A stretch of DNA of 64,000 nt from NCBI GenBank assembly GCA_018241525.1, contig JAFEDR010000009.1, forward strand, positions 248,001 through 312,000, read 5' to 3'. Positions 33,701-52,009 of the stretch are shown here, piece by piece (the stretch's first letter is position 1; every line of letters begins with the position of its first letter). Origin of the DNA: Pseudomonadota bacterium (lineage in GTDB: Bacteria > Pseudomonadota > Gammaproteobacteria > Steroidobacterales > Steroidobacteraceae). The notes beneath the pieces are model-generated. The model saw only the letters and a list, made by a program, of their open reading frames with translations, searched no databases and was not told the DNA's origin. The position numbers and the translations under genes were made by a program.

Positions 33701-34546
33701 GTGAGCAGCGTCCTGCCGATCCGTCAGCCGAACCGCACGCTTGAGAGTGAGGTTGAGTTCGTCGTGCCGGGCGCCGCGGCGCTCTACACCTACGAGTACG
33801 CGGCCGGTGCCGGCGCGCCACCCGACTCCGCGACCTTCGTGCCGCGGACGGTGTCGCTGCGCGACGTGCGCGAACTCGCCGCGCCGACGCTCGAGGCCCA
33901 CGGGCTCGCGTTCCTGCGCTCGCCGACGGCCGTCGCCGACCTCTACGACGCCGCGGCGGTCGAGCGCGACTACTTCCCCGAGTGCGCGGCCCTGCTGCGC
34001 CGCGCGCTCGGCGCGCGCGAGGTCATCGTCTACGACCACAACGTCCGCCGTGGCCAGGCGCTCGCGCTCAAGCCCGACCGCTACGACCAGGGCCGGCCGG
34101 TGCCGCACGCCCACACCGACTACAGCGGTCGCTCGGCCCTCCGGCGCCTGCGCGAGATCCTCGGGCCGGCCGCAGCCGACGCGGAACGGCGCCGCTACGT
34201 GCAGGTGAACCTGTGGCGCCCCATCCGCGGCCCGGTCCGCGACCGTCCGCTCGCGCTGTGCGACGGCGCGAGCCTGGGTCCCGGCGACCTGCAGTCCTCG
34301 GAGCTGCGCTATCCCGACCGCACCGGCGAGCTCTACTACCTCGCGCACGGGCCGTCGCAGCGCTGGATCTACGCCTCGGACATGCAGCCCGACGAGGCGT
34401 GGGTGTTCAAGAACTTCGACTCGCGCCCGCCCGCGGGCGTGATCGCCGTGCCGCACTGCGCCGTCGCAGATCCGCGCTACGCCGGCGCGCGGGTCGGGCC
34501 GCGCGAGAGCATCGAAGTCCGCGCCTTCGCGCTGTTCGACGCCTGA
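33701..34546 (+). CDS. CmcJ/NvfI-family oxidoreductase (2OG-oxygenase-like)
   Basis: 281 residues, matching the CmcJ family length. Diagnostic segments: VYDHNVRRGQ, VPHAHTDYSG (H138 and D140, the 'VHxDxS' metal motif), VNLWRPIRGPVRDRPLALCD, IYASDMQPDEAWVFKNFDS and the late PHCAVADP histidine. Members come from cephamycin (CmcJ) and fungal meroterpenoid (NvfI) pathways and are widespread in bacteria without known substrates. GAGGTGA before the GTG at 33701 supports the start. It lies 16 bp from the convergent cupin-like gene and is not part of that operon. Confidence 0.85.
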   Translation: MSSVLPIRQPNRTLESEVEFVVPGAAALYTYEYAAGAGAPPDSATFVPRTVSLRDVRELAAPTLEAHGLAFLRSPTAVADLYDAAAVERDYFPECAALLRRALGAREVIVYDHNVRRGQALALKPDRYDQGRPVPHAHTDYSGRSALRRLREILGPAAADAERRRYVQVNLWRPIRGPVRDRPLALCDGASLGPGDLQSSELRYPDRTGELYYLAHGPSQRWIYASDMQPDEAWVFKNFDSRPPAGVIAVPHCAVADPRYAGARVGPRESIEVRAFALFDA

Positions 34547-34562: not shown

Positions 34563-35624
34563 TCAGGAGCGCGGGCCGGCGGGCCCCGGCCGCAGGCGCA
34601 TCGCGACGACCTCGCGGACGCGCGCCGCATCCTCGGCCGAGAGCGCCGCGAGCACCCCGTGCCGCTCCGGCGGCACCGCCTCGGTCGCCGCGCCGGGGTC
34701 GGCGAAGACGTAGTGCTCGAACAGTGCGCGCCACGCGGCCCGGGTCGCCGACGGCAGTCCACGCACGCCGAGGATCGCGAGCAGCAGGCTGTCGAAACCC
34801 GACTCGCTGCGCCCGGATCGGTCGGTGCGCGCGTGCCACCAGTAGTTCACGAGCAGGTTGCAGTCGGCGAGCGACTCGACGTTGTGCCACCAGAGCGGCG
34901 GCACGTACAGCGCGTCGCCCGGACCGAGCTCGGCGACCCGCGCGGCGGCGAGTGCATCGGCGAACCGGGGGAAGCGCCGCAGGTCCGGCTGGCGCACGTC
35001 GACGAGGCTCATCGGCGCCCCGGTAGGTGCGAAGTCGAGCGGGCCGACGTAGAGGTTGGCCACCTGCGCCGGCGGGAACAGCGTGAAGCGGCGGCGGCCT
35101 GCCACCACGCAGGCGAGGTTGCACCACTCGTCGACGTGCGTCGGCGTCATCAGGCGGTTGCCGAGCCACAGTCGCGGGGCAATGCCGTCCGCGAGCAGCG
35201 GCATCGGGTGCTCCGCCGTGAAGCCCGGCACGCAGCTCTCGGCCGGCGCGCTCTGCACCGCGACCGACGGTGCCGCGGGGAAGGCCGCGTAGCGCAGTAC
35301 CTGCTCGGCGACCGCCGCGAGCGGCAGCCGGTTGCGCAGGTAGTTGAAGCCGTCCATCGCCTCGTTGTAGAACACGCGCCCGCCGCCAGCGGGCGGCACG
35401 AGCAGCGCGTCGACGGGTGCGCCGCTGTCGAGCCGCGCGAGATAGGCGACGAGCGCCGCCGGCGAGCGCGCCGCCTCGGCCACGGCCGGCCAGCGGGCGA
35501 CCAGCCCGCGCAGCACGGCGGGCTCGCCCGCCGCGACCACGTCGCGCTCGAATCCGGCGCGGTCGTGTACCTCGACCTCGGTGATCGGCCGCGGCGCGGG
35601 CCGCGACGCAGCGGTCTCCGGCAT
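34563..35624 (-). CDS. Cupin-8/JmjC-like Fe(II)/2OG oxygenase-type protein
   Basis: 353 residues. The JmjC-like jelly roll shows H-x-D in LMTPTHVDEWCNLACVV and the distal His in YVPPLWWHNVESL, so the iron triad looks complete; FTLFPPAQVANLYVGPLD is a further cupin-8 hallmark. It follows the halogenase gene in the same operon; from memory such cupin genes recur next to flavin halogenases and TonB receptors in Xanthomonas- and Caulobacter-like bacteria, with no function proven. The start could be GTG at 35630 or ATG at 35624; the ATG is better spaced from GGTGA. It is the last gene of the leftward GlcNAc operon. Confidence 0.85.
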   Translation of the reverse strand: MPETAASRPAPRPITEVEVHDRAGFERDVVAAGEPAVLRGLVARWPAVAEAARSPAALVAYLARLDSGAPVDALLVPPAGGGRVFYNEAMDGFNYLRNRLPLAAVAEQVLRYAAFPAAPSVAVQSAPAESCVPGFTAEHPMPLLADGIAPRLWLGNRLMTPTHVDEWCNLACVVAGRRRFTLFPPAQVANLYVGPLDFAPTGAPMSLVDVRQPDLRRFPRFADALAAARVAELGPGDALYVPPLWWHNVESLADCNLLVNYWWHARTDRSGRSESGFDSLLLAILGVRGLPSATRAAWRALFEHYVFADPGAATEAVPPERHGVLAALSAEDAARVREVVAMRLRPGPAGPRS

Positions 35625-35634
35625 CGTCACGCGT

Positions 35635-37245
35635 TCACCAGAAGTACACCTGCAGCGACGGGCCGGGGCGGCGGGGCGGGATCGCCGCCAGCAGCGACCG
35701 GTGGTCGGGGTAGTGGACCACGCTGCGCTCGAGCAGGTCGTCGATCTCGGCCAGAGTGTAGCGCCCCTCCTCCGCCGTCGGTGCGCGCAGGTCCGCAGCG
35801 TCCGGGAAGATGGCCATGCCGGCCATCAGCGCGTACCACGAGAACACCGGGTAACCCTTGCCGAGCGCCTGGCGGCGCACCGGCGTCGAGATGCCCTCGC
35901 CGTTCATCCACAGCGTCAGCAGCTGCTTGAGGGGCTCCGAGAGCTGCCGGTTCGCCGCGTTGGCGCGCCAGTACTCGGTGTCGGTGCGGCTGTTGGTCTT
36001 GTAGTGGGTCACGATGTAGTCGCGGGTACCCTCGAAATGCTCGTTGACGCGCTGGTTGAACGCCGCGCGCGCCGCCTCGCCGAGGTCGCCGCGGTCGAGC
36101 GCCTCGGCAAAGCCGGCGGCGGTCTGCTGGATGAACAGCAGCGCCGTCGCCTCCAGCGGCTCGATGAAACCCTGCGAGAGGCCCACCGCGAGGCAGTTGC
36201 GACGCCAGTGCTCGGTCACTCGGCCGACCCGCATCCGGAGGTGGCGCGCCGGCACGTCCGACTCGAGCAGCCCGAGCCTCGCCCGCAGCTCGCGTTCCGC
36301 CTCATCGGCCGAGCAGAACTTCGTGCTGTAGACATAGCCATTGCCGTAGCGGCTCGTCAGCGGGATCCGCCAGGCCCAGCCGTGCCGCAGCGCGGTCGAG
36401 ACCGTCTCCGACGGGATCGGCCCGTCGATCGGGGTGGGCAGCGCGACCGCGGCGTCGTTGAAGAGGTTCTCGGCGAAGCTCAGGAACGGCGTCCGCAGCG
36501 CCTGGTCGATCAGCAGGCCGGCAAAGCCGGTGCAGTCGACGAAGAAGTCCGCCTCGATCGGCGCGTCGTCCCGGAGTGTGAGCGCGGCGATGTCGCCATC
36601 GGCGGCGAGCGTCGCGCCGGTGACGTGGCGCACGAGGTGCCGGACGCCTCGCTCGATGGCCTTGCGCTTCAGGAATTCGCCAAGCAGGCCGGCGTCGAAG
36701 TGGTAGCCGTGCCAGACGTCGAACGGGAAGTCCGGCGACGGCTTCGGGGCCAGGCGCCGCGCGGCGAGCCGGGTGGCGATGAAGTACCGGTCCGGATGGG
36801 CATCGACGTTCACCCCGCGCACCCGCGCATCGGCGTTGTGGACGAACTGCGGCATCGTCAGGTTGTCGAGCATCGAGGCGAACGGGTGGAAGTACGAGCC
36901 GAAGCCGGGCCGGCTCGACCAGCCCTCAAAGGTGATGCCGCACTTGTAGGTCGCATGGCAGGCCGGCATCCACTCCGCCTCCTCGATCCCGAGGCCGTCG
37001 AAGAACCCGCGCAGCCACGGGGTCGAGCCCTCGCCGACGCCGATGGTGGGCACGGTCGGCGACTCGACCAGCAGCACCTCGCCGCCGCGCGGCACGAGGC
37101 TGCGCGCCAGCAGCAGCGCCGTCATCCAGCCCGCGGAGCCGCCGCCCACGATCACCAGCCGGCGGACCGGCGGCGGGCCGGCGGCCGGGACCGCGGCCGT
37201 CGCCGCGGTGGCGGACTGGTTGTAGACGGTGGCGACGATCGACAT
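35635..37245 (-). CDS. Flavin-dependent tryptophan-halogenase-family protein
   Basis: 536 residues, the family's normal size. The FAD loop is VIVGGGSAGWMTA (31-43), the halogenase lysine is K101 in ATYKCGITFEGW, and the WxWxIP signature is present as WAWRIP (290-295), so halogenase chemistry is possible. SQGFIEPLEATALLFIQQT is the conserved C-terminal substrate/FAD region. It lies inside a GlcNAc uptake operon, 33 bp after PTS IICB, and is followed by a cupin-like gene. No flavin reductase is adjacent. Such carbohydrate-linked halogenase homologues have no known substrate; acting on tryptophan is not implied. GGGAG precedes the ATG. Confidence 0.9.
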   Translation of the reverse strand: MSIVATVYNQSATAATAAVPAAGPPPVRRLVIVGGGSAGWMTALLLARSLVPRGGEVLLVESPTVPTIGVGEGSTPWLRGFFDGLGIEEAEWMPACHATYKCGITFEGWSSRPGFGSYFHPFASMLDNLTMPQFVHNADARVRGVNVDAHPDRYFIATRLAARRLAPKPSPDFPFDVWHGYHFDAGLLGEFLKRKAIERGVRHLVRHVTGATLAADGDIAALTLRDDAPIEADFFVDCTGFAGLLIDQALRTPFLSFAENLFNDAAVALPTPIDGPIPSETVSTALRHGWAWRIPLTSRYGNGYVYSTKFCSADEAERELRARLGLLESDVPARHLRMRVGRVTEHWRRNCLAVGLSQGFIEPLEATALLFIQQTAAGFAEALDRGDLGEAARAAFNQRVNEHFEGTRDYIVTHYKTNSRTDTEYWRANAANRQLSEPLKQLLTLWMNGEGISTPVRRQALGKGYPVFSWYALMAGMAIFPDAADLRAPTAEEGRYTLAEIDDLLERSVVHYPDHRSLLAAIPPRRPGPSLQVYFW

Positions 37246-37277
37246 CGGGGCTCCCGGGTCGTTCCGGCGGCGCCGCG

Positions 37278-38975
37278 TCAGTCCGCGCCGGCGGTCACGA
37301 GCCCGGCGGCGACCGCCTCGGCGGATCCCGTCACCAGCACGTGCACGACGCCCGCCGACGGGCGCGCGACACCCCGGACACCCAGCCGCGCGAGCCCGGC
37401 GTCGTCGACCAGCGCCGCATCCCGAACGCGCAGCAGCAGCCGCCCGGCCACCGCCTCGCAGGCGAGCACGTTGCGGGCCCCGCCGAGGGCCGCCGAGAGC
37501 CCGCCGGCATCCGGCGCCGTCCCGCGCTCGCGCAGCGCGGCCCGCATCTCGCCCGCGATCTGGTCGGCGACCGGCCCCACCACGACCTGCAGTGCGCTCG
37601 CCGAGATCCGCACGATTCCGCGCGCCCCGAGGGCCCGCAGGCGCGGCTCGTCGACATTCCCGGCCTCGGCGACCTCGAGCCGCAGCCGCGTCGTGCAGGC
37701 ATCGACGCTGCGCAGGTTCGCCGCGCCGCCGAGCGCCGCGACGTAGGCTTCGCCGCGCGCGCTGCCGGCGGTCGCCGCCGCGACCGGCGTCGCGGCGACG
37801 CCGGTGTCGCGCTCGCGTCCCGGGGTCGCCAGGTCGAAACGCCGGATGCAGACCCGGAACAGCGTGTAGTAGAGGGCGAAGTAGGCGGCGCCGACCGGCA
37901 GCAGCAGCAGCGGACGCTGCGCGTAGCGGAAGTTGAGCACGTAATCGAACAGGCCGGCCGAGAAGCTGAAGCCGAGGCGGATGCCGAGCGCGTCCATCAG
38001 CGCCATTGCGACCCCGGTGGCAACCGCGTGCACGACGTACAGCAGCGGCGCGAGGAACATGAAGGTGAACTCGACCGGCTCGGTGACGCCGGTCAGGAAC
38101 GAGGTGAGCGCGAGCGAGCCGAGCAGGCCGGCGACCGCCGCCCGCCGCTCGGGGCTCGCGGCGCGGTACATCGCGAGGCAGGCGCCCGGCAGGCCGAACA
38201 TCATCACGGGGAAGAAGCCGGACATGAACGCCCCCGCGGTCGGATCGCCGGCGAAGAAGCGCTTCAGGTCGCCGGTGGCGCCGTGGTAGTCGCCGACGAT
38301 GAACCACGCGAAGTTGTTCAGGATGTGGTGCAGGCCCGTGACGATCAGCACCCGGTTCAGCACGCCGTAGACGAAGAGCCCGACCGAGCCGGCCCCCAGG
38401 ATCGCGTGACTGAAGCCGTCCAGGCCGCGCTCGAGCGACGGCCAGGCGACGCTGAGCACGCCGGCGATCGCGATGCCTACGAGGCCCGCGGCGATCGCGA
38501 TGAAGCGCCGGCCGCCGAAAAAGCTGAGGGCCCCCGGCAGGTTGATGCCCGAGTAACGGTTGTACAGGAGTCCCGCGGCAATGCCGGAGGCGAGCCCGAC
38601 GGGGACGCTCAGCTTCGCTATCTCGTCCTGGCGGAAGGCCAGCACGGCGAGATCGCGGCTTCTTCCCGCGAGGCCAGCGACCACGGCATCCGGCGCGACC
38701 AGCACCGCCTCGGCGCCCTTGGTGGCCACGAGGTAGCAGACGAGCGCCGCGAGGCCCGCCGCGCCGTGGTTCTCGCGAGCGAGGCCGACGGCCACGCCGA
38801 CCGCGAACAGCAGCCCGAGGTTACGGAACACCGCGTCGCCGGCGGCAGCCACCATCGTCGAGTCGAGCAGGTCAGGTTGCCCGAGGCGCAGCAGCAGGCC
38901 GGCAATCGGCAGCACCGCAATCGGCAGCATCAGCGCACGGCCGAGCGCCTGCATGCGGGCGAGTGGCGAGGTCAT
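37278..38975 (-). CDS. nagE: PTS N-acetylglucosamine transporter IICB (NagE-type) with a second degenerate IIB
   Basis: 565 residues. About 1-385 is a glucose-family IIC domain with 10 or so membrane helices; HHILNNFAWFIVGDYHGATGDLKRFFAGDPTAGAFM and FLTGVTEPVEFTFMFLAP, in pieces, match the GlcNAc-specific branch. Residues around 410-480 are a IIB domain with the phosphorylation site VDACTTRLRL. Residues 490-560 repeat the same fold, but the site reads NVLACEAVAGRLLLRV, so the CTTR motif is lost. There is no IIA on this protein; the IIA is on the upstream fusion. The ATG overlaps the upstream stop (ATGA). It should import and phosphorylate GlcNAc in the inner membrane. Confidence 0.93.
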   Translation of the reverse strand: MTSPLARMQALGRALMLPIAVLPIAGLLLRLGQPDLLDSTMVAAAGDAVFRNLGLLFAVGVAVGLARENHGAAGLAALVCYLVATKGAEAVLVAPDAVVAGLAGRSRDLAVLAFRQDEIAKLSVPVGLASGIAAGLLYNRYSGINLPGALSFFGGRRFIAIAAGLVGIAIAGVLSVAWPSLERGLDGFSHAILGAGSVGLFVYGVLNRVLIVTGLHHILNNFAWFIVGDYHGATGDLKRFFAGDPTAGAFMSGFFPVMMFGLPGACLAMYRAASPERRAAVAGLLGSLALTSFLTGVTEPVEFTFMFLAPLLYVVHAVATGVAMALMDALGIRLGFSFSAGLFDYVLNFRYAQRPLLLLPVGAAYFALYYTLFRVCIRRFDLATPGRERDTGVAATPVAAATAGSARGEAYVAALGGAANLRSVDACTTRLRLEVAEAGNVDEPRLRALGARGIVRISASALQVVVGPVADQIAGEMRAALRERGTAPDAGGLSAALGGARNVLACEAVAGRLLLRVRDAALVDDAGLARLGVRGVARPSAGVVHVLVTGSAEAVAAGLVTAGAD

Positions 38976-41494
38976 GGACTACTCCCGGGGCGCAAGGCCT
39001 GGATGCGTGCACGAACGAGGGCGGCAGACTCGAGCGCGAGGCAGTCGGCGGCGAGCGCGACGCAGTCCGCGAGCCGGAGCGAGCGCACCCGCTGCTTGAT
39101 CGCCGGCACGGCCGCCGGCACCACGGACAGCTCGCGGATCCCGAGCCCGAGCAGCACGGGCACGGCCGCCGCATCCGCCGCGACCCCGCCGCACACCGCG
39201 GCCAGCCGGCCGGAAGCCGCGGCGGCACTCGCCGCGCGGCCGACGAGCTGCAGCACCGCCGGATGCAGTGCGTCGGCGCGCCCCGCGAGCTGCGGGTGGC
39301 CGCGATCCATCGCCAGCGTGTACTGCGTGAGGTCGTTGCTGCCCACCGAGAGGAAATCCGCCGCCGCCGCGAGCGCAGGCGCGAGCAGCGCCGAGGCCGG
39401 GGTCTCGATCATCGCGCCGATCGCGACCGGCTCGCGGCGGCCGAGCTCGGTAGCGAGCTCCGCGACCAGTGCCCGCACGGCGGCGAGCTCGGCGACGTCC
39501 GTCACCATGGGGACGAGCAGCCGCACGATGCCGGCGGGCTCGACCCGGAGCGCGGCGCGCAGCTGCGTGCGCAGCAGGCTGCGATGCGCGAGCGCCGTGC
39601 GGATCCCGCGCAGCCCGAGCGCCGGGTTCTCCTCGGCAGGCAGCGGCAGGTATGGCAGCGGCTTGTCGCCGCCCACGTCCATCAGCCGCAGCACCAGTGG
39701 CCGGCCGCCCAGCGCGTCAGCGATCGCCTGGTAGGCGGCGAGCTGCTCGGCTTCGTCCGGCGCGGTCGCGCGGTCGATGAACAGGAACTCCGTCCGCAGC
39801 AGGCCGCAGCCCTCGGCGCCGTTCGCGACGGCGGCCACGGCGTCGGCGGTGCTGCCGACGTTCGCGAAGACCTCGACACGCGTACCGTCGAGCGTATGGC
39901 ACGCCTGCTGCGCGTCGCGGCGCTGCTCATCCCGCGCGCGCCGGCGATCCGCGACGCTGCGCTCGGCGGCGCGGAGCTCCGCAACCGTCGGCGCGCTGTC
40001 GATCTGGCCGGCATCTGCGTCGACGACCACGGTCGTGCCCTCGGCGAGATCGCGGATCCGCGCGCCGAGGCCGACCAGCATCGGCACGTCCATCGCCGCC
40101 GCGAGGATCGCGACGTGCGAGGTCGCGCCACCCGCGGCGAGGCAGATTGCCGCGAGCCGCGTGCGGTCGAGCGCAACGAGCTCGGAGGGCAGCAACTCGT
40201 CGGCGACCAGCACCGCGCGGTCCGGCAGCGGCAGGTTCATCGGCCGCGCTTCGCCGTTGAGCGCGAGCAGCACGTGGGCCTCGACGTCGAGCAGGTCGTC
40301 GGCGCGCTCGCGTAGCCGCGGATCGGCGAGCGCGCGCAGCGCGGCGATCGCGCGTCGCACCGCGGTGCGCCACGCGAAGCCAGCGCTCTTGCCGGCCGCG
40401 AGCAGTTCCTGCGCCGTGTCCTGCAGCAAGGGGTCCTCGAGGAACTCGACGTGCGCGCCGACGATCTCGCGGCGCGCGGCGCCGCCGACCTCGCCGACGC
40501 GGGTGAGGCGCGCCTTCACGGTGGCGAGCGCATGGCGCAGCGCGGCGCTCTCGGCCTCGGCGCCGCGACCGGCCTCCGTAACCTCGATCTCGCGCCGCTC
40601 GAGGCGCGCGACGGTGCCGACGGCGAAGCCGCCGACCGCGGTCACGCCACGCCCGGCCCCGGCATCGGCTGCCGGGGCCGGTGCCGGCGCATCGGCAGAG
40701 GGCGGCGCGAGTCCGCTCCCGGCGGCCTCGACACGCACCGCGTCGGCGAGCGCGGCGACGAACGCGTCGAGCGCCGCCGTCGCGTCCGTACCCGCGGCCT
40801 CGAGCGTGACCTCCTCGCCCGCACCAACGCCGAGCGACATTAGCGCGACGACGCTACGAGCGCTCGCCCGGCGCCCGCGCAGCTCGACAGTGACGTCGGA
40901 CGCGAACGCCCGCAGCCGCTGACTGAGCATCGCCGCGGGGCGGGCGTGGATGCCGTGGCGCAGTTCGACTTTCAGCGCTCGGCGCTCGGCGGCAGCAACG
41001 GGCACCGGAGCGACCGTCGACGGCCCGGTCACGGCGGGCAGCTCAACGTCGTACAGCGGCGCGCCGGCGCGGACGGGCCCGGCTGCACGTGGCCGGATCG
41101 TCAGCGACCCGGCTGGCGAGGTCGCAACGACCGGCGTCAGCAGGCTCGGCGCCATGCGGGCGACGGCATCCAGGTCGAAGCTCAGCAGCCGGTCGCCCGC
41201 CGCGACCCGCTGGCCCGCGCGGACGTGCGCCTCGAATCCGCGGCCGGCCAGTTTCACGGTGTCGATGCCGACGTGGACGAGTACGTCAGGGCCCGCGTCG
41301 CTGCGAATCGAGACGGCGTGGCGACTGGCCCCGACGGTGGTCACCAGCCCGTCACAAGGTGACCGTACCTCGCCCGACAGCGGATCGATCGCGAGGCCCT
41401 CGCCAAGCATGCGCCCCGCGAATACCGGGTCCGGCACCTCGTCGAGGGTCGCGCACCAGCCGTCGAGCGGCGCGAGGATCGTCAGCGTCTTCAC
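38972..41494 (-). CDS. PTS IIA(Glc)-HPr-enzyme I fusion protein
   Basis: About 840 residues. Domains: IIA of the glucose family with phospho-His74 (VLVHVGIDTV), HPr with His183 (RHGIHARPAAML) and the regulatory serine region (ARSVVALMSLG), and enzyme I from about 280 with its phospho-His in GGATSHVAIL and the PEP-binding C-terminal barrel. One polypeptide thus carries phosphate from PEP to the IIB of the next gene. The GTG at 41494 overlaps the hexosaminidase stop by 4 bp; an in-frame upstream extension is inside that gene. Similar fusions are known in GlcNAc loci of Caulobacter-like bacteria. Having its own phosphorelay frees this sugar system from the general PTS. Confidence 0.93.
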   Translation of the reverse strand: MKTLTILAPLDGWCATLDEVPDPVFAGRMLGEGLAIDPLSGEVRSPCDGLVTTVGASRHAVSIRSDAGPDVLVHVGIDTVKLAGRGFEAHVRAGQRVAAGDRLLSFDLDAVARMAPSLLTPVVATSPAGSLTIRPRAAGPVRAGAPLYDVELPAVTGPSTVAPVPVAAAERRALKVELRHGIHARPAAMLSQRLRAFASDVTVELRGRRASARSVVALMSLGVGAGEEVTLEAAGTDATAALDAFVAALADAVRVEAAGSGLAPPSADAPAPAPAADAGAGRGVTAVGGFAVGTVARLERREIEVTEAGRGAEAESAALRHALATVKARLTRVGEVGGAARREIVGAHVEFLEDPLLQDTAQELLAAGKSAGFAWRTAVRRAIAALRALADPRLRERADDLLDVEAHVLLALNGEARPMNLPLPDRAVLVADELLPSELVALDRTRLAAICLAAGGATSHVAILAAAMDVPMLVGLGARIRDLAEGTTVVVDADAGQIDSAPTVAELRAAERSVADRRRARDEQRRDAQQACHTLDGTRVEVFANVGSTADAVAAVANGAEGCGLLRTEFLFIDRATAPDEAEQLAAYQAIADALGGRPLVLRLMDVGGDKPLPYLPLPAEENPALGLRGIRTALAHRSLLRTQLRAALRVEPAGIVRLLVPMVTDVAELAAVRALVAELATELGRREPVAIGAMIETPASALLAPALAAAADFLSVGSNDLTQYTLAMDRGHPQLAGRADALHPAVLQLVGRAASAAAASGRLAAVCGGVAADAAAVPVLLGLGIRELSVVPAAVPAIKQRVRSLRLADCVALAADCLALESAALVRARIQALRPGSSP

Positions 41495-43770
41495 GGCGCG
41501 GCCACCCCGAGCTCCACCCAGTCGAGCGCCCAGAGCGGATCGATCGTCGGTCGCGCGAAGCGCAGGCACACGTCACGGCGCTCCGTTGCGGCCGGCAGCG
41601 CGCCGCGCAGCACCTGCGGCGAGGGGGTGCCGTCCAGCGCGAGCACGGCCGCGGGCGGAGCCTGGCAGCTGCCCACATGCACCTCGAGCTCCGCGGCGGC
41701 TCCGCGCGGCGAGCCGAGCTTCACGTGGGCCAGATCGGCGGCCAGCTCGAAATTGAACGGCAGCGGAACGGCGCGGACCCGAAAGCCTGGCCCGGCCGAG
41801 AGGTCGGCACCGCGGTAGATCCAGCACGGGTCCATGATGTCGAGCGCGAGCGGTGCCGCCTCGGCCGTGCCGCCCCGCGCGTCGAGCAGCAGGCCGACCC
41901 CGTCGCTGCAGAGCTCGAGCTCGCGGCTGTTGCGCCGCGCGAGCGATGCCGCATCGGTGCGCTGCGTCCAGGTGCCGGACAGGCGCTGCGCCCCGAGGAA
42001 CGTCGCGGCCGCGAGCGTCGCGCCCGGCGCGACCTCGATCGAGTCGCCGTAGGCCGCCGAGTCCGCCGTCGGTTCACGCCCGTCGGCCGTGTAGCGAATC
42101 GTCCCGACGTGCGACTGGTTCCCGAGTCGGACCTCGAGGTGCCCGGGGGCCGCCTGCAGGCTCGCGTGCACGGCGAAGGCGCTGTCGGCCGCGTGCAGCC
42201 CGAGCGCCGCATAGCGCGGCCGCGTCGCGGCGAGTCGCTGCAGGAAGCCGCGCCAGTCGCGTCGCGCCGCCGGCGTCCAGCCGAGCTCCGCGATCGCCGC
42301 GGCCCTCGGCAGTGCCATCCACTCGAGCATATCCCGGGTGGGGATGTGCTCGGTCCAGAGGTTGCCCTGCACGCCGCGCACGTGGGCGCGCGCGTGGGCT
42401 GGCAGCGACGGATCCTCCGGCGCGAAGCGGTAGACGTCCTCGAGCGAGACGACCTGCGTGCGGCCGGTGGGCTCCTGCGGCAGTGAGCTTTGCCGGTTGT
42501 CGAGGTACAGCGTTGGCCAGGGCGCGAGTACCGCGTCGTTGCCGGCGAGCGCCGCGGCGCGCGCGCCGCTCGTGCCGTGCCAGGACATCACGACGGCGTC
42601 CGCGGGCAGCCCCGGGCGCAGGATCTCGTCCCAGCCGACCAGTCGACGTCCGTGCGCGGCGAGGAACCGCCCGAGGCGCGCCGTGAAATAGGGCTGCAGC
42701 CCGTCGACGTCGGCAATGCCGAGCTCGTGCAGCCGGGCGACGACCCGCGCGGACCGGCGCCACTCGTCCCTCACCACCTCGTCGCCGCCGACGTGCACGT
42801 ACGGACCCGGAAAGAGCTGCACGACTTCCTCGAACACGTCCTCGAGGAACCGCAGCGTCGCCTCCTCCGGATTGAGCAGATAGGTGTGGATGCCCCAGCG
42901 CGCCGAGACCGTTGGCGCCGGATCCTCGCCCGCCCCGAGTGACGGATACGCGGCGATCGCCGCCTGGGCGTGCCCCGGCACGTCGATCTCCGGCACGATG
43001 GTGACGGCGTGTTCCGCCGCGTAGGCGACGATCTCGCGCACTTCCGCCTGGGAGTAAAAGCCGCCGACGCGCGCGACGGGTTCCCGGCCGACGGTCGCCG
43101 GCACGCGCCACGCGCCGACCTGCGTGAGGCGCGGGTACTTGCGGATCTCGAGCCGCCAGCCCTGGTCGTCGGTCAGATGCCAGTGCAATACGTTGAGCTT
43201 GTGCCAGCTCATCCACTCGATCACGGATTTCACGTCGGCGACGGACTGGAAATGACGGGCGGAGTCGAGCATCAGTCCGCGCCACGGATAGGCGGGCGCG
43301 TCGCTGATCGTCTGCGCCGGGATTGCGGCCGAGGCAGTGCCGGGCGGGATCAGCTGCCAGAGGGTCGCAGCCCCGTACAGCAGGCCCGCGTCGCTGCGGG
43401 CCTCGATGCGCGCGCCATGCGCCGAGATCGAAAGGCGGTAAGCCTCGGGTCCGAGGTCCTGGCGCCGCACGAGGCGAACCGCCGTCCCCCGGGGCGGTCG
43501 ATCCGCGAGCGCGAGGTCGGGCCCGCCGATGCGCTGCGTCCACTCCCGCAGGATGCCGGCGACGCGGCGCGCGCCCGCATCCTCGCCGGCCGCGTAGACG
43601 GGAGTGCCGGCCGCAAGCACCAGCACGCCCGTCCGCGCCTCGATCACCGCGGGTTCCGGGATCACCCCGCTTGCCGGCGGCGCTGCACCCGATGCCAGCA
43701 GACAGGCGCAAGCCACCGGCAGCCACCGGAGCCGACATGCTGGCTGCAACCGCGGTTCCTCCACCGTCAC
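41491..43770 (-). CDS. Beta-N-acetylhexosaminidase (GH20)
   Basis: 759 residues. A signal sequence (WLPVACACLLASGAA) contains cysteines and may be a lipobox, giving an anchored lipoprotein. After the GH20b-like domain comes the barrel: WRGLMLDSARHFQ, HWHLTDDQGWRLEI, and the catalytic pair D330-E331 in HVGGDEV, used for substrate-assisted cleavage of terminal GlcNAc. The C-terminal 200 residues are beta-rich with a chitobiase-like segment (TIRYTADGREPT). It would trim chito-oligosaccharides or glycan GlcNAc in the periplasm. The GTG at 43770 is used; a TTG at 43749 after GGAGG is a credible alternative. A hairpin separates it from the receptor gene. Confidence 0.92.
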   Translation of the reverse strand: MTVEEPRLQPACRLRWLPVACACLLASGAAPPASGVIPEPAVIEARTGVLVLAAGTPVYAAGEDAGARRVAGILREWTQRIGGPDLALADRPPRGTAVRLVRRQDLGPEAYRLSISAHGARIEARSDAGLLYGAATLWQLIPPGTASAAIPAQTISDAPAYPWRGLMLDSARHFQSVADVKSVIEWMSWHKLNVLHWHLTDDQGWRLEIRKYPRLTQVGAWRVPATVGREPVARVGGFYSQAEVREIVAYAAEHAVTIVPEIDVPGHAQAAIAAYPSLGAGEDPAPTVSARWGIHTYLLNPEEATLRFLEDVFEEVVQLFPGPYVHVGGDEVVRDEWRRSARVVARLHELGIADVDGLQPYFTARLGRFLAAHGRRLVGWDEILRPGLPADAVVMSWHGTSGARAAALAGNDAVLAPWPTLYLDNRQSSLPQEPTGRTQVVSLEDVYRFAPEDPSLPAHARAHVRGVQGNLWTEHIPTRDMLEWMALPRAAAIAELGWTPAARRDWRGFLQRLAATRPRYAALGLHAADSAFAVHASLQAAPGHLEVRLGNQSHVGTIRYTADGREPTADSAAYGDSIEVAPGATLAAATFLGAQRLSGTWTQRTDAASLARRNSRELELCSDGVGLLLDARGGTAEAAPLALDIMDPCWIYRGADLSAGPGFRVRAVPLPFNFELAADLAHVKLGSPRGAAAELEVHVGSCQAPPAAVLALDGTPSPQVLRGALPAATERRDVCLRFARPTIDPLWALDWVELGVAAP

Positions 43771-43776
43771 TGCCGT

Positions 43777-43805
43777 CCCGGGGCGCGCCAGACGCGCGCC
43801 CCGGG
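43777..43805 (-). terminator. Intercistronic hairpin between the receptor and hexosaminidase genes
   Basis: CCCGGGGCGCG-CCAGACG-CGCGCCCCGGG: a perfect 11-bp GC stem, 7-nt loop, in the 68-bp gap of the leftward operon. It has no U-tract. A partial terminator or mRNA-stabilising end would make the receptor more abundant than the downstream enzymes. Confidence 0.6.
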
Positions 43806-43838
43806 CAAGCTTGACACACCGCTAGCCGACGTGGCGGC

Positions 43839-46589
43839 TCAGAACTTCACGCGGACGTTCAGGTAGTACTGCCGGCCGTTGGTGTAGAACGCGCGCGGCT
43901 GGTCGGTGTTGAGCGCGTAGTACTTCAACGTCGGGTTGTTGAGGTTCTGGCCGTCCAGCGTGAACGACAGGTTGTCGTTGACGGTATAGGCCAGCGAAGC
44001 CGACAGGTAGCCGGTGGCGTCCATCGAGAACGCGCTGCTCCGGTCGAGCCCGCTGAAGTACGCCGATCGGTAGTTGTACGCGACCCGCGCACTGAAGTGC
44101 GCGTCCTCGTAGTAGGCACTCAGGTTGTACGTGTTCTTCGACGTGCCGACCAGGCGATCATCACCGTTGACCACGTCGGAGGTCTGCTTGCCGTCCGCAT
44201 AGGTGTAGTTGGCCGCGACGCCGATGTGGTCGGTCAGGGCCTGCTGGTAGGCAAGCTCGAGGCCCCCGACCCGACCCTTCGAGTTGATCGGCACAGTCAT
44301 GATGTAGTTGAGGTTCTGGCCCTGCGGGTACTGGTTGCTGAACGACAGCGCGTTCAGCGGCACCGAGCCGTAGCTGATGTAGTTGCGCAGGTCCATATAG
44401 AAGAGCGTCGCCGACAGCAGCGAGCGCTTCGCGAAGTACCACTCGATGCCCGCATCGAGGTTCGTGGAGCGAATCGGCTTCAGGTCGGGGTTGCTGGTCG
44501 AGCCGCCACCGGCCACGTTGCCGACCGGCGGAGAACCGAGCGTGGTCGCACCCGCGAGCGCCGAGTAGTCCGGGCGCGTCATCGTCTCGGCGGCCGCAAA
44601 GCGCGCTATCAGGTCCTTCGCGAGCTCGAGCTTCAGGTTGGCGCTCGGCAGCAGGTCGTTGTAGGTGTGACTCGCCGGGCGGGCGATGTAAGGTCCGAAC
44701 AGCGAGGTCGTGACCGCTCCCGGGGTGGTCGCCAGCACCGAGCTGTCCTGCTCGTAGTTGACCGTGTCCTCCTGCGTGCGCACGTACCGCAGGCCGAAGT
44801 TCGCGGACCAGCCGGAGCCCTTGAGATCCGCCTGGATGTACGCGGCGTCGTTCTTCTCGTGCAGCTGGAACCAGAAGTCCGGGTAGGCCCGCGCCACCGG
44901 ATCGCGCTGCACGAGACCCGTGCCGTTGTAGGCCGCGAGCTGCGCCGGGGTCCAGTACCAGACGCCGGTCGGGATGCTGCCGCCGAACGTGTTGAAGTCC
45001 GACGGGTAGTTCTGCCAGGTCGTCGGGTAGTTCGCGGTGCTGGTGCCGCCGCCGTTCGGGCCACTGAAGGTCGGGCCCTGGGCGATCGCGCCGAGCGACA
45101 CGCGGCTGTGCGACTCGTGCCGCGCCCCGAACTTCAGGTCCTCCCAGGGCCCGCCGTCCAGCCGCATCGTGGCATCGAGCTTGACCCAGTCCTCCTTGTC
45201 CTTCACGTCGATGTCCTGGGCACCGAAGATCCAGCCGAACGCCACCGGCGTGCCGTTCGGGAATGGCGTGGTGTTGTTCGTCGTACCGAGGTTGAAGTTC
45301 GGCGCGCTGCCGAGGCCCTGCAGCGTCCAGCCGGCGCCCTGACCGACGTCCGGCACGGTTTCCGCGACATTCTGCGTCGGCGTCTTGCCGTCGCCTTCCG
45401 AGTGGCCGAGCTGCCCGTCGATCGACAGCCGCTCGCTGACGCGCCAGTTGCCGTCGAGGTTGATGAAATACGTCGTCTCCTTCTCGTCGGGGCGGGAGAT
45501 CTGGTCGTAGATGCCGTAGTTCGTGCCGCTGACGCCGGTGTAGTTGGCGGACACGAGCGTGTTGTTGCGGACCACGTAACCCGCGTCCGGCGACTGTCCG
45601 GCGCCGTCGTGCACGAAGCCGTTCTGCACCCACACGAGGTAGTTGCGGTTGTAGTTCGGGGCGTTGACGTCCGACAGGAAGCCCGACAGGTCGAAGTTCA
45701 GGTTGTCGGTCGGCTTGAACTGCACGTCCAGCAGTCCGCCCTTGCGCTCGCGCTTCTGCTCGAAGAACGCCGCGCCGAGGAAGTCCGGGTACCAGACGTT
45801 CGCGAGGTCCGGGTGCGCGGTGGCCACCGCGCTCGTCGGCGCGATCTGGCTGTAGCCGAGGATTTCGACGCCGTCGCGGCGCAGGTGACGGGTCTCGGAG
45901 AATGCCTGCACCATCACGCCGATCGTCTTGTCGTCGTTGCGCCAGTTGAAGAGCCCACTCAGCTGCGGATCGGTCTTGCTCGGCAGGTCCGAGTAAACGG
46001 CGCCGGCCGAGGCCTCGAAGGTCAGCGGCTTCGCGAAGTCGAGCGGCTTGCGCGTGATGATGTCGACCGAGCCGGCGACTCCGCCCTCGACCAGCGAGGC
46101 CTCCGAACTCTTGCGGACCACGACCTGGCTGACGAGCTCCGACGGCAGCAGCGTATAGCTGACGCTGCGGCCGACCGTGCCGGTCTGGTTCAGCACGAAC
46201 CAGTCGCCGGCGGCGACGTTGTGGCCGTTGATCAGCGTCTGGGTCAGGCTGGGATTGGTGCCGCGCATGCTGACGCGGTCGTTCTCGTCGAAACCACCCT
46301 CGCCCGCGCTCGCGGAGCTGATCGTCACGCCCGGCACGCGCTGCAGCGAGTCAGCGATGTTCTTGTCCGGCATCTTGCCGATGTCCTCGGCCGTGACGAC
46401 CTCGACGAGGTTGTCCGACTGGCGCTTGACGTCGAGCGACGCCTCGAGCGAGCGCCGGAAACCCGTCACCACCACTTCCTCGAGCGTATTCGCGGGCGCG
46501 ACCGGCGCTGCCTGCGCGAGCGCGAGCGCCGGTGGCGCCAGCATCGCGAGTCCCAGGGCCGACTTGACCGCCAAGGTGATCCGATTCAT
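43839..46589 (-). CDS. TonB-dependent receptor (2), GlcNAc/chito-oligosaccharide locus
   Basis: 916 residues. A signal peptide ends at ALALAQA; the TonB box NTLEEVVVTGFRRSLEASLDVKR, in pieces, and the plug (DIGKMPDKNIADSLQRVPGV) fit the TIGR01782-type Xanthomonas/Caulobacter receptor family exactly. The barrel ends in QYYLNVRVKF with a terminal Phe. GGGGGAG stands upstream of the ATG. As first gene of the leftward operon beside hexosaminidase, PTS and halogenase, it most likely imports chito-oligosaccharides or GlcNAc-containing glycans. It is controlled from the divergent region at 46590-46897. Confidence 0.93.
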   Translation of the reverse strand: MNRITLAVKSALGLAMLAPPALALAQAAPVAPANTLEEVVVTGFRRSLEASLDVKRQSDNLVEVVTAEDIGKMPDKNIADSLQRVPGVTISSASAGEGGFDENDRVSMRGTNPSLTQTLINGHNVAAGDWFVLNQTGTVGRSVSYTLLPSELVSQVVVRKSSEASLVEGGVAGSVDIITRKPLDFAKPLTFEASAGAVYSDLPSKTDPQLSGLFNWRNDDKTIGVMVQAFSETRHLRRDGVEILGYSQIAPTSAVATAHPDLANVWYPDFLGAAFFEQKRERKGGLLDVQFKPTDNLNFDLSGFLSDVNAPNYNRNYLVWVQNGFVHDGAGQSPDAGYVVRNNTLVSANYTGVSGTNYGIYDQISRPDEKETTYFINLDGNWRVSERLSIDGQLGHSEGDGKTPTQNVAETVPDVGQGAGWTLQGLGSAPNFNLGTTNNTTPFPNGTPVAFGWIFGAQDIDVKDKEDWVKLDATMRLDGGPWEDLKFGARHESHSRVSLGAIAQGPTFSGPNGGGTSTANYPTTWQNYPSDFNTFGGSIPTGVWYWTPAQLAAYNGTGLVQRDPVARAYPDFWFQLHEKNDAAYIQADLKGSGWSANFGLRYVRTQEDTVNYEQDSSVLATTPGAVTTSLFGPYIARPASHTYNDLLPSANLKLELAKDLIARFAAAETMTRPDYSALAGATTLGSPPVGNVAGGGSTSNPDLKPIRSTNLDAGIEWYFAKRSLLSATLFYMDLRNYISYGSVPLNALSFSNQYPQGQNLNYIMTVPINSKGRVGGLELAYQQALTDHIGVAANYTYADGKQTSDVVNGDDRLVGTSKNTYNLSAYYEDAHFSARVAYNYRSAYFSGLDRSSAFSMDATGYLSASLAYTVNDNLSFTLDGQNLNNPTLKYYALNTDQPRAFYTNGRQYYLNVRVKF

Positions 46590-46711
46590 TTAGATGCTCC
46601 CCCGTAAATGTCGCCGTACCGTCGATGCCGAATTCGCGGACCGGACTGGCCGGGCATGGGTGCCGCGGCGAGAGGCCCTGGACGTCGCCCGGGCTTTAAT
46701 CCCAGGAACGA

Positions 46712-46739
46712 ACCACTTAAGGCCCAATATAGTACCAGT
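46712..46739 (-). promoter_or_regulatory. Triple half-site operator array A
   Basis: On the minus strand it reads ACTGGTA-N6-TGG-N8-TGGTT. The TGG(T) units lie at exact 11-bp steps (plus-strand ACCA at 46712, CCCA at 46723, ACCA at 46734). ACTGGT is the half-site of GntR/HutC regulators of amino sugars (DasR and YvoA/NagR). It overlaps a possible -10 (TACTAT/TATATT) for the receptor operon. Confidence 0.6.
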
Positions 46740-46835
46740 GAGAAAAGAATGCTAGCCCGTCAAAACAGCGTAAAAGGCCCTTTTGTCGCGAACGAATGGT
46801 CGGTCTCGGAGATTCGACTACAAAGTCGTCCCCAT

Positions 46836-46864
46836 ACTGGTATCTGTGTGGTACTGTTCTGGTT
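46836..46864 (+). promoter_or_regulatory. Triple half-site operator array B
   Basis: ACTGGTA-N6-TGG-N8-TGGTT on the plus strand, with perfect TGGT at 46838, 46849 and 46860, again in 11-bp steps. It is the mirror counterpart of array A and ends 33 bp before the NagR-like start, well placed for autoregulation. Confidence 0.65.
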
Positions 46865-46897
46865 GATGCGTCCACGCCACCGTTCCGGCTCCTCACC

Positions 46898-47641
46898 ATG
46901 ACGTCGCTAGCCAAGGCCGTCGGCCCACTCGACGAACAGAGCAACCTGCCGCTCTATCAGCAGTTGCAGCGCGCGATCCGGCGCGCCATCGAGAGCCGAC
47001 TGCTGGCGCCCGACGACGCGTTGCCGGCCGAGCGCGATCTGGCGACCGACTTCTCGGTCTCGCGCATCACGGTGCGCAAGGCCATCGAGGGTCTCGTGGC
47101 GGAGGGGCTGCTGGTCCGCCGCCAGGGCAGCGGCAACTTCGTCTCGGCTCGCGTCGAGAAGAATTTCTCGATGCTGACCTCGTTCTCCGAGGACATGCGC
47201 GCGCGGGGGCGCACGCCGCGCAGCGTGTGGCTGAAGCGCGCGGCCGGCACGGTGACGCCGGAGGAGGCGCTCGCGCTGCGCCTCAGTCCCGGCACGCCCG
47301 TGTACCGCTTCCACCGGATCCGCTACGCGGACGACGCGCCGATGGCGATCGAATACGCGACGATCGTCGCCTCCGCCCTGCCCTCGCTCGAGTCCGTGGA
47401 CACCTCGCTGTATGAGGCGCTCGAGCAGGCTGGGCAGCGGCCGGTACGCGCGCTGCAGCGGCTGCGGGCGGTGCTCCTGACCGGCGACCAGGCGGAGCTG
47501 CTGAAGGCCCGACCCGGGGAGGCGGGCCTGCTGGTCGAGCGCCTCGGCTCGCTGCGCGACGGCCGGGCGATCGAGTTCTCGCAGTCCTTCTACCGCGGCG
47601 ACACGTACGACTTCGTGGCCGAGCTGAGCGACGGCACGTGA
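46898..47641 (+). CDS. nagR: GntR/HutC-family regulator, NagR-like
   Basis: 247 residues. The N-terminal winged helix: PLYQQLQRAIRRAIESRLL, LPAERDLATDFSVSRITVRKAIEGLVAEGLLVRRQGSGNFV in pieces (about 18-80), then a UTRA ligand domain (FSEDMRARGRTPRSVWL ... YRFHRIRYADDAPMAIEY). UTRA regulators of this type bind GlcNAc-6-P or glucosamine-6-P. The ATG at 46898 gives the usual short lead before the helix-turn-helix; no Shine-Dalgarno is seen. Its stop overlaps the deaminase start by 4 bp (GTGA). It most likely represses both divergent operons until amino-sugar phosphate builds up. Confidence 0.9.
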   Translation: MTSLAKAVGPLDEQSNLPLYQQLQRAIRRAIESRLLAPDDALPAERDLATDFSVSRITVRKAIEGLVAEGLLVRRQGSGNFVSARVEKNFSMLTSFSEDMRARGRTPRSVWLKRAAGTVTPEEALALRLSPGTPVYRFHRIRYADDAPMAIEYATIVASALPSLESVDTSLYEALEQAGQRPVRALQRLRAVLLTGDQAELLKARPGEAGLLVERLGSLRDGRAIEFSQSFYRGDTYDFVAELSDGT

Positions 47642-48708
47642 GCGGCCCGCAGATTCCGGCGCGGGGCGCCGCGCCGTCCGCGGCCGCCGCGGCAACGCTG
47701 ATGTTCCGCGAGGCGGCGAGCGCGGGCGAGGTCGTCCGCGCACAGCTGGCGGCGGACGCTGACCTGTACGCGTCGCTCGGCACGACGCTCCGCTCGCTCG
47801 CGCCACGCGCAGTGGTCACCTGTGCGCGCGGCAGCTCCGACCATGCGGCGACCTACGCCAAGTACCTGATCGAGACGCGGGTACGGGTGCTGTGCGCCTC
47901 GGCCGCGCCGTCGGTCGCATCGGTCTACGGCATTGGCCAGGACCTCGACGGCTGCGTGCTGCTCGCGATTTCCCAGTCCGGCCGCAGCCCGGACCTGATC
48001 GCTACCGTCGAGCGCGCACGCGCCTGCGGCGCGACGGTGGTCGCCCTTTGCAACACGCCGGATACGCCGCTGGTCGCGGCCGCCGACCACGTGATTCCGC
48101 TGCGCGCCGGGCCCGAACGCAGCGTCGCGGCCACGAAGTCGTACCTGGCGACGCTCGCGGCACTGGCGCGATTCGTGGCTGCGTGGACCGACGATGCGGT
48201 ACTCGCGCGGGACCTCGGCGGCCTGCCGGCGGCGCTCGATCGAGCGTGGCAGCTCGACTGGAGCGCGGCGCTCGAGCTGCTGGCCGGCGTCGAGCACCTC
48301 TATGTCGTCGGCCGCGGGCTCGGGCTCGCGGCGGCGCAGGAAGTGGCGCTCAAGTTCAAGGAGACCTGCGGCCTGCATGCCGAAGCGTTCAGCGGCGCCG
48401 AAGTCCGGCACGGGCCGTTCGCGCTACTCGGCCGCCGCTTCCCCGCAATGATCCTCGCGCAGCACGACGCAACGCACGACGGCCTCGCGGCACTCGCGCT
48501 CGATCTGGTGCGGCAGGGCGTACCGACGCTGGTGGCCGGTGCCGCGGCGGCCGGCGCGACCGAGCTGCCGACGGTCGCCTGCCGCGCGGAGCTCGAGCCG
48601 ATGCTGCAGGTGGCGACGGCCTACCGGCTGCTCGCCGAGCTCGCGGTCCGACGCGGCCTCGATCCCGACCAGCCGCCGCACCTGCGCAAGGTCACGGAGA
48701 CCGTCTAG
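47638..48708 (+). CDS. nagB-II: SIS-domain glucosamine-6-phosphate deaminase (NagB-II type)
   Basis: 356 residues holding two SIS domains and no glutaminase domain, so it is the isomerase half of a GlmS-like protein. First SIS: VVTCARGSSDHAATYAKYLIE and LLAISQSGRSPDL; second: HLYVVGRGLGLAAAQEVALKFKETCGLHAEAF, AEVRHGPFAL; C-terminus HLRKVTETV is the conserved tail. In amino-sugar loci this form, NagB-II, converts glucosamine-6-phosphate to fructose-6-phosphate and ammonia. The GTG at 47638 overlaps the regulator's stop. It follows the regulator and precedes nagA, completing the catabolic route. Confidence 0.93.
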   Translation: MSGPQIPARGAAPSAAAAATLMFREAASAGEVVRAQLAADADLYASLGTTLRSLAPRAVVTCARGSSDHAATYAKYLIETRVRVLCASAAPSVASVYGIGQDLDGCVLLAISQSGRSPDLIATVERARACGATVVALCNTPDTPLVAAADHVIPLRAGPERSVAATKSYLATLAALARFVAAWTDDAVLARDLGGLPAALDRAWQLDWSAALELLAGVEHLYVVGRGLGLAAAQEVALKFKETCGLHAEAFSGAEVRHGPFALLGRRFPAMILAQHDATHDGLAALALDLVRQGVPTLVAGAAAAGATELPTVACRAELEPMLQVATAYRLLAELAVRRGLDPDQPPHLRKVTETV

Positions 48709-49847
48709 TGGCCATCGCCCTCGCGAATGCGGAGCTGCTGCTCGGAGACCGCTTCGTGGCGGGCCGGACGCTGCTGATCAAGGGCGGGCGCGTCGAGGCG
48801 GTGCTCGCCGCCGACGATGCCCGACTGCGGAGCGTGCCGACCGAAGATCTGGCGGGCTTGCGGCTCGTCCCTGGTTTCGTGGACATCCAGGTGAACGGCG
48901 GCGGCGGCGTCCTGTTCAATGACGCCCCGAGCGTCGAGGGCATCCGCGCGATCGGCGCCGCCCATCGTGCGTTCGGCACGACCGGCTTCCTGCCGACGAT
49001 CATCAGCGACGACCTCGACACGATCGCCCGGGCGGTGGACGCGGTCGAGGCCGCGATCGCGGCTGGCGTCCCGGGTGTGCTCGGTATCCACATCGAGGGC
49101 CCGTTCCTGAATCCCGATCGCCGCGGCGTGCACGATCCACGCCACCTGCGCGAGCTCTCCGCAGCGCTCGTGCCCCGGCTGCGGTCGCTGCGAGGCGGGC
49201 GCACGCTGCTGACGGTCGCGCCGGAGCGCACCACCCCGGAGATCATCGGCGAACTGGCCGCCGCCGGCGTGATCGTCGCCGCCGGTCACAGCAATGCCAC
49301 GTTCGCGCAGGTCACGGCGGCGATCGCACAGGGCCTGCGCGGGTTCACGCACCTCTTCAACGCGATGTCGCAGCTGACGCCGCGCGAGCCCGGCATGGTC
49401 GGCGCGGCGCTCTACAGCCGCGACACGTGGTGCGGGATCATCGTCGACGGGCACCACGTCGACCCGATGACGCTGCGGATCGCGCTGCGCTGCAAGCCCC
49501 GCGACCGATTCCTGCTCGTGACCGACGCCATGCCGCCGGTGGGTTCGCCGGCGCGGACATTCTCGCTGCAGGGGCGGACGATCCGCGTCGTCGACGGCGT
49601 CTGCCGCGACGAACGCGGCACGCTCGCCGGGACCGCACTCGACATGGCAAGTGCGGTCCGCAACAGCGTCGGGCTGCTCGGGGTCGAACCGGTCGACGCG
49701 CTGCGCATGGCGAGCGAGTACCCGGCGAACTTCCTCGGCATCGCCGACCTCGGCCGGATCGAGCCGGGAGCGCGCGCCAGCCTCGCGGCGCTCGATGATG
49801 CGCTGCAGGTGCGCCGCACCTGGATCGACGGATGGGAGAGCGCCTGA
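48708..49847 (+). CDS. nagA: N-acetylglucosamine-6-phosphate deacetylase
   Basis: 379 residues. Amidohydrolase motifs: GFVDIQVNGGGGVLFND, the metal Glu in GIHIEGPFLNPDRRGVH, the metal histidines in AAGHSNATF and GFTHLFNAMSQL, and the catalytic Asp in LVTDAMPPVG. It removes acetate from GlcNAc-6-P, giving the substrate of the deaminase just upstream. The GTG at 48708 shares its first base with the upstream TAG stop. It ends 13 bp before the convergent flavoprotein gene. Confidence 0.95.
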   Translation: MAIALANAELLLGDRFVAGRTLLIKGGRVEAVLAADDARLRSVPTEDLAGLRLVPGFVDIQVNGGGGVLFNDAPSVEGIRAIGAAHRAFGTTGFLPTIISDDLDTIARAVDAVEAAIAAGVPGVLGIHIEGPFLNPDRRGVHDPRHLRELSAALVPRLRSLRGGRTLLTVAPERTTPEIIGELAAAGVIVAAGHSNATFAQVTAAIAQGLRGFTHLFNAMSQLTPREPGMVGAALYSRDTWCGIIVDGHHVDPMTLRIALRCKPRDRFLLVTDAMPPVGSPARTFSLQGRTIRVVDGVCRDERGTLAGTALDMASAVRNSVGLLGVEPVDALRMASEYPANFLGIADLGRIEPGARASLAALDDALQVRRTWIDGWESA

Positions 49848-49853
49848 CGGTCG

Positions 49854-49875
49854 GCGCCGGCTAGCGGCCCGGCGC
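49854..49875. terminator. Candidate bidirectional hairpin between nagA and the flavoprotein gene
   Basis: GCGCCGG-N8-CCGGCGC, a perfect 7-bp stem, overlapping the stop codon of the leftward gene. Its place between convergent genes suits a shared transcript end; there is no T-run. Confidence 0.4.
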
Positions 49876-51897: not shown

Positions 51898-52009
51898 CGG
51901 TGCCCTCCGGCGCGACCGCGGAGCCGGTCGCATTTCGAAATGCTCGTTATACGTCCATATAGTAAACTTATATAAGCATATAGTTCGCTCTCACGTCGGA
52001 GGGTCGCCG
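51898..52009. promoter_or_regulatory. Highly repetitive AT-rich divergent promoter region
   Basis: 112 bp between the flavoprotein and the MttB-like gene. It contains a perfect 12-bp palindrome CATTTCGAAATG (51931-51942), two direct copies of CATATAGT (51956-51963 and 51977-51984, 21 bp apart) and, centred between them, the perfect palindrome CTTATATAAG (51967-51976). A promoter with -35 TTATAC (51948) and -10 TATAAG (51971) is possible. The design suggests a single regulator switching both genes. Confidence 0.65.

Follow-up and report, generated by a model that had tools for sequence, protein, structure and literature searches.

The locus described here raises the question of why a set of genes for GlcNAc uptake and breakdown also encodes a flavin-dependent halogenase and a JmjC-like oxygenase. 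It occupies positions 34563-49847 of the window, which denotes the whole 64,000-nucleotide stretch of DNA that was analysed, and is a complete GlcNAc locus with a TonB receptor, GH20, PTS IIBC, a fused IIA-HPr-EI protein, a GntR regulator, a NagB-II-like deaminase, and NagA. All genes were recovered by Pfam and TIGRFAM/NCBIfam profile matches where an earlier note on this DNA had placed them (Table 1). Our main reading, to which we assign a probability of about 0.55, is that this is a GntR-controlled GlcNAc scavenging locus with its own PTS, together with a conserved halogenase/FIH-like accessory pair of TonB-dependent sugar uptake. Our analysis bears out the view that the pair finds no explanation in sugar catabolism.

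Table 1. Genes and putative regulatory sites of the GlcNAc locus, and the other two full-length halogenases of the genome
Feature	Position	Strand	Evidence or remark
Cupin_8 / FIH-JmjC-like 2-oxoglutarate oxygenase	34563..35624	-	PF13621, E=1.3e-62
Flavin-dependent halogenase, tryptophan-halogenase family, 536 aa	35635..37245	-	PF04820, E=3.4e-124
GlcNAc PTS IIBC, NagE type	37278..38975	-	TIGR01998, 628 bits vs. cut-off 553
Fused PTS IIA-HPr-EI	38972..41494	-	PF00358, PF00381, PF05524, PF00391, PF02896, all above cut-off
GH20 beta-N-acetylhexosaminidase	41491..43770	-	PF00728, E=2e-109; start codon uncertain
TonB-dependent receptor, GlcNAc type	43839..46589	-	TIGR01782, 629 bits vs. cut-off 310
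Putative GntR operator, direct TGGT repeats (TGGTACTATATTGGGCCTTAAGTGGT)	46712..46740	-	upstream of receptor gene
Second TGGTA-repeat site	46838..46862	+	before GntR gene; read from sequence, partial match in searches
GntR/UTRA regulator, NagQ/NagR type	46898..47641	+	PF00392 and PF07702; start set from relatives
NagB-II-like glucosamine-6-phosphate deaminase, SIS domains	47638..48708	+	NF046059, 313 bits, full length, below cut-off 430
NagA, GlcNAc-6-phosphate deacetylase	48705..49847	+	TIGR00221, 306 bits vs. cut-off 226
Other two halogenases (L102, L103)	G000:C14:366000-382000, 1094000-1110000		directly after TonB receptors

The genes form two divergent units rather than a single operon. 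On the minus strand, the order starting from the receptor is TonB receptor, GH20, IIA-HPr-EI, IIBC, halogenase, and Cupin_8, with neighbours overlapping by 4 bases or separated by gaps of 10-68 bases, as expected of one operon. The plus-strand unit runs from GntR through the NagB-II-like gene to NagA with successive 4-base overlaps. The earlier claim that the two redox enzymes end the operon holds for the receptor operon, in which they come last; in many relatives the pair directly follows the receptor gene. As its NF046059 score stays below the cut-off, the deaminase is named NagB-II-like only.

As previously proposed, the route from outer-membrane uptake to fructose-6-phosphate is complete, with receptor, GH20, PTS, NagA, and the NagB-II-like enzyme all present. 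The TonB receptor would import GlcNAc oligomers and GH20 would trim them, IIBC together with IIA-HPr-EI would import and phosphorylate GlcNAc, and NagA and the NagB-II-like enzyme would yield fructose-6-phosphate. The NagE-type IIBC, which scores above its cut-off, is joined by IIA, HPr, and EI, and phosphorylation-site motifs are readable in the sequence (VHVGID in IIA, GIHARPA in HPr, GGATSH in EI, and DACTTR in IIB). Since the profile of the EI N-domain (PF05524) has a single match, the IIA-HPr-EI fusion, in the 4.45-Mb assembly, which is ~96% complete, the relay is apparently the organism's only sugar-PTS relay, in agreement with the self-contained PTS that had been suggested. The emphasis on chitin fared less well. 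A search of the assembly that, among chitin-degrading enzymes, covered the GH18 chitinases (PF00704) gave no match, which weakens this emphasis, and it is more likely that the organism scavenges GlcNAc oligomers than that it degrades chitin on its own. The C-terminal extension of IIBC resembles a second, diverged IIB domain, and TIGR01998 matches this protein in two stretches.

The TGGT direct repeats of the putative GntR operator have a spacing of ~11 bases, and the site is kept at the same position in ~14 related loci; in locus L086, where a cupin gene is divergent from the receptor gene, such a site is likewise found between the two. A 14-base core of the operator has exactly one match in the assembly, before the receptor operon carrying the halogenase and the cupin, which predicts, at the level of sequence, that the receptor, the PTS, and the redox pair share one GlcNAc-responsive transcript. 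No GntR operator was found upstream of the 13 unlinked nag-type halogenases checked, which counts against our main reading.

The pairing of halogenase and cupin is real and more than incidental. Across 30 genomes, namely this one and 29 relatives that came from a family search and are unbiased towards context, 11 of the 13 clear Cupin_8 genes lie less than 1 kb from a halogenase, compared with 0.05 expected. In the fetched loci, of which the contig set was selected for resemblance to the halogenase of the window and is biased to its clade, the two genes stay adjacent with short gaps while the gene order around them changes. The pair may follow IIBC or NagA or come immediately behind the receptor, and its two genes also occur in reversed or divergent orientation. 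Conservation together with the pair was seen for no further biosynthetic, export, or resistance gene in these loci, for which gene calls came from our own codon-usage caller and several of which stop at contig ends. In two loci, L053 and L067, receptor, halogenase, and cupin are each present twice in a mirror arrangement. The order there (L053, 8357-15736, and also L067) is receptor-cupin-halogenase-halogenase-cupin-receptor, with one halogenase and one cupin per receptor.

With identity to the window proteins of at least 70% for the receptor, at least 70% for the halogenase, and at least 60% for the cupin as thresholds for presence, the three occur together in five of 30 genomes (G000, G001, G003, G008, and G011), which belong to one genus and are thus not independent cases, and all three were unseen in the remaining 25. 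Since the pair is located on a different contig from the receptor in G008 and G011, this co-occurrence does not reflect linkage alone. Many nag-type halogenases have no adjoining receptor, a point against the main reading, and these unlinked "orphans" fall with the halogenases of nag loci into one well-supported clade of the tree that reaches outside the genus. A receptor 47-58% identical to that of the window is present in 13 of 19 searched genomes with orphan halogenases, and the best receptor matches reach only 40-42% in the other six, which likewise speak against it. In the 13 receptor loci fetched from orphan genomes, the receptor is accompanied by GH20, NagA/NagB-II, or a GntR or LacI regulator. 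The inner-membrane importer varies, being a PTS in the window, encoded by ABC genes in L053 and L067, and, judging from size and context, probably a permease in LacI-type loci, so that the constant partner is the receptor side and not the PTS. As assembled, the gene for the GlcNAc-type receptor of one relative (L125, G011:C22:11281-13908) is read through a single in-frame TAG.

Contrary to the uniqueness that the earlier note had implied, the association is not confined to this locus, since like halogenases stand beside TonB receptors of other sugars. Both other full-length halogenases of this genome directly follow a TonB receptor in another sugar operon. One of these two operons encodes a glucoamylase-like protein along with a LacI regulator and an ABC importer; in the second, an MFS permease and a protein of the GlcNAc-2-epimerase family accompany ROK proteins. 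Among 37 full-length halogenases from this genome and the relatives, 23 have a TonB receptor no more than two genes away, a count that errs low because the receptor profile misses divergent receptors; one further linked receptor, in L106 (near copy L111), was missed by the profile. Such halogenases are therefore commonly accessories of TonB-dependent sugar loci in these groups, and that of the window is the GlcNAc version. The wider halogenase family is also accompanied by SapC, DUF6445, and a TPR-2OG oxygenase. Two or more of the recurrent partners (Cupin_8, DUF6445, SapC, and the TPR-2OG-FeII_Oxy_5 protein) are 2OG oxygenases; the TPR protein with C-terminal 2OG-FeII_Oxy_5 (PF13759) is found in the halogenase/receptor loci L106, L111, and L077. 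A TPR, sulfotransferase-looking protein is encoded no more than two genes away from the halogenase or the cupin in L011, L016, L018, L041, L043, and L044.

Both redox enzymes retain their catalytic motifs, as had been read from the letters of the DNA, and are predicted to be active. The halogenase matches PF04820 with 416 bits against a curated cut-off of 21, and K101 and GWAWRIP (289-295) are intact; G34-G36/G39 of GxGxxG, K101, W290, W292, I294, P295, and the active-site glutamates E362 and E365 are invariant in 23 aligned homologues. By sequence (~33-36% identity) and by the fold of its model (pLDDT 86), it is nearest to the tryptophan 5/6-halogenases PyrH, SttH, and AbeH, with which it shares the catalytic Lys, WxWxIP, and the aromatic HPF motif. 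Unlike these enzymes, it stands outside any natural-product cluster, and PyrH Tyr447, Tyr448, Glu452, and Tyr454, which we take to sit close to the amino-acid moiety of tryptophan when it is bound, lack conservation in the nag group. With the HPF motif retained, the non-conservation of these four positions suggests that the substrate is an aromatic other than free tryptophan. In the cupin, the HxD...H iron site (H163, D165, H247) as well as N169 and N260 are invariant in 34 relatives, and the Thr/Asn positions aligned with FIH are kept. Matches to FIH and JMJD5/7 were obtained with phmmer, and the model (pLDDT 93) has FIH, TYW5, JMJD5, and JMJD7 as best structural matches, so that the protein belongs by iron site and fold to the FIH-like JmjC 2OG oxygenases (PF13621). 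It differs from these proteins in its identity of only ~20% and in that its bacterial subfamily is almost always found beside a halogenase. An alternative upstream GTG start of the cupin at 35630 is possible.

What the pair acts on is a separate question. The halogenase and the FIH-like oxygenase would be produced together with the receptor as a two-enzyme accessory, the halogenase oxidising or halogenating an electron-rich aromatic other than free tryptophan and the cupin hydroxylating the same or a partner substrate. Three targets had been put forward, namely the imported glycan, the receptor itself, and a competitor compound. Flavin halogenases as a class oxidise electron-rich aromatic rings, of which GlcNAc has none, and sister halogenases go with receptors of quite different sugars; despite the position of the pair beside PTS and GH20 genes in the operon, the glycan is chemically the least likely of the three and hardly credible. 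It is also highly improbable that the pair is a chance bystander in the nag operon, as the existence of unlinked nag-type halogenases might indicate, because the two genes are paired, have repeatedly been re-linked to a receptor in varied orders, and co-occur with it in an all-or-none manner even when unlinked. A small aromatic, such as an antimicrobial, a signal of the indole type, or a compound entering with the glycan, is a serious rival as substrate, though with the odds against it. The halogenase would then halogenate and the cupin hydroxylate, with sugar supply as the expression cue. Those FIH-like oxygenases whose function is known have proteins or tRNA as substrates, no other biosynthetic, export, or resistance genes are conserved with the pair, and the polar residues presumed to be close to the amino-acid moiety of tryptophan are not conserved, all of which argues against such a substrate. 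In its favour, free tryptophan or indoles are the substrates of the closest enzymes that have been characterised, and in vitro bromination of indoles is described for BrvH and the Xanthomonas enzymes (PMC5945002, PMC7336383).

QhpG, a halogenase-fold flavoprotein that dihydroxylates peptidyl Trp (PMC7876137), is the weak NCBIfam match of the window's protein, and a hydroxylase partner adjoins. This would fit a monooxygenase or redox sensor that has the halogenase fold and does not halogenate, acting QhpG-like on protein tryptophan; such a role is unlikely, as the catalytic Lys, WxWxIP, and the EPLE signature are fully retained and the QhpG model gives 46 bits against a cut-off of 240. For the accessory pair of the main reading, our leading guess is a protein-bound aromatic tied to the uptake machinery, to which the FIH-like partner, the QhpG precedent, and the absence of natural-product genes point. 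That the pair places halogen or hydroxyl groups on a protein of the TonB-dependent sugar-uptake system, receptor or partner, is a rather doubtful specification of this guess. We know of no description of protein modification of such a kind in bacteria. No W/Y/H column separates 61 halogenase-linked from 35 unlinked receptors, and the halogenase-receptor correlation over 10 shared loci (0.44) is not above that of the halogenase with IIBC (0.55) or with the EI fusion (0.68); larger correlations from another comparison were set aside because the taxon sets differed. A single target residue in the receptor and receptor-specific co-evolution were accordingly rejected, and a receptor target receives no direct support from these comparisons. 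A precursor peptide gene, as for a RiPP-tailoring halogenase, was also rejected, since the halogenase gene is preceded by a gap of 32 bases and followed by one of 4-10 bases, with comparable spacing in relatives, which leaves no room for it.

Every component of the locus is of a known family. The receptor, deacetylase, and NagB-II logic is common to the Shewanella-type Nag pathway (NagP, NagK, NagB-II, NagA, and the TonB-dependent OmpNag; PMC2996990), from which the window differs by a PTS with fused IIA-HPr-EI in place of NagP and NagK, a GntR regulator, and the added halogenase/cupin pair. BrvH and the Xanthomonas campestris halogenases, for instance Xcc4156 (PDB 6frl and 6y1w), which do not act on free tryptophan and whose native substrates are unknown (PMC5945002, PMC7336383), belong to the same Pfam family as the window's halogenase. 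By score, the window's enzyme is nearer to PyrH/SttH than it is to BrvH or Xcc4156, and in contrast to these two it is linked with a cupin partner and with a defined locus for GlcNAc uptake. No paper describing the TonB receptor-halogenase-cupin association was found in a search that left out most subscription literature, so that earlier notice is possible. Several flavin halogenases of the family have been purified and crystallised with their natural substrates unknown. Here, co-occurrence, FIH-like pairing, and operon position tie one halogenase subfamily to GlcNAc uptake via the TonB receptor, and this tie points to a probable inducer, to a partner enzyme, and to a small number of candidate targets, which makes the natural role testable. 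Culturable relatives with this subfamily include Oleiagrimonas, Dyella, Lysobacter, Roseateles, and Pelomonas. Should the target indeed be one of the uptake proteins, enzymatic halogenation would enter outer-membrane biology.

Two neighbouring regions deserve mention. A gene for a CmcJ/NvfI family oxidoreductase (33701-34546, plus strand; NF041278, 254 bits vs. 80) is convergent with the cupin gene and adds a further oxygenase-type enzyme at the edge of the locus. It was rejected as a member of the module, being on the opposite strand and not seen next to the pair when relatives were mapped by tblastn. On the other side, an old-yellow-enzyme/trimethylamine-dehydrogenase-like gene (49861-51933, minus strand) and an adjoining trimethylamine-methyltransferase (MttB)-like gene (52010-53524, plus strand) were recognised by eye, and these genes beside the nag locus are possibly a methylamine or betaine locus.
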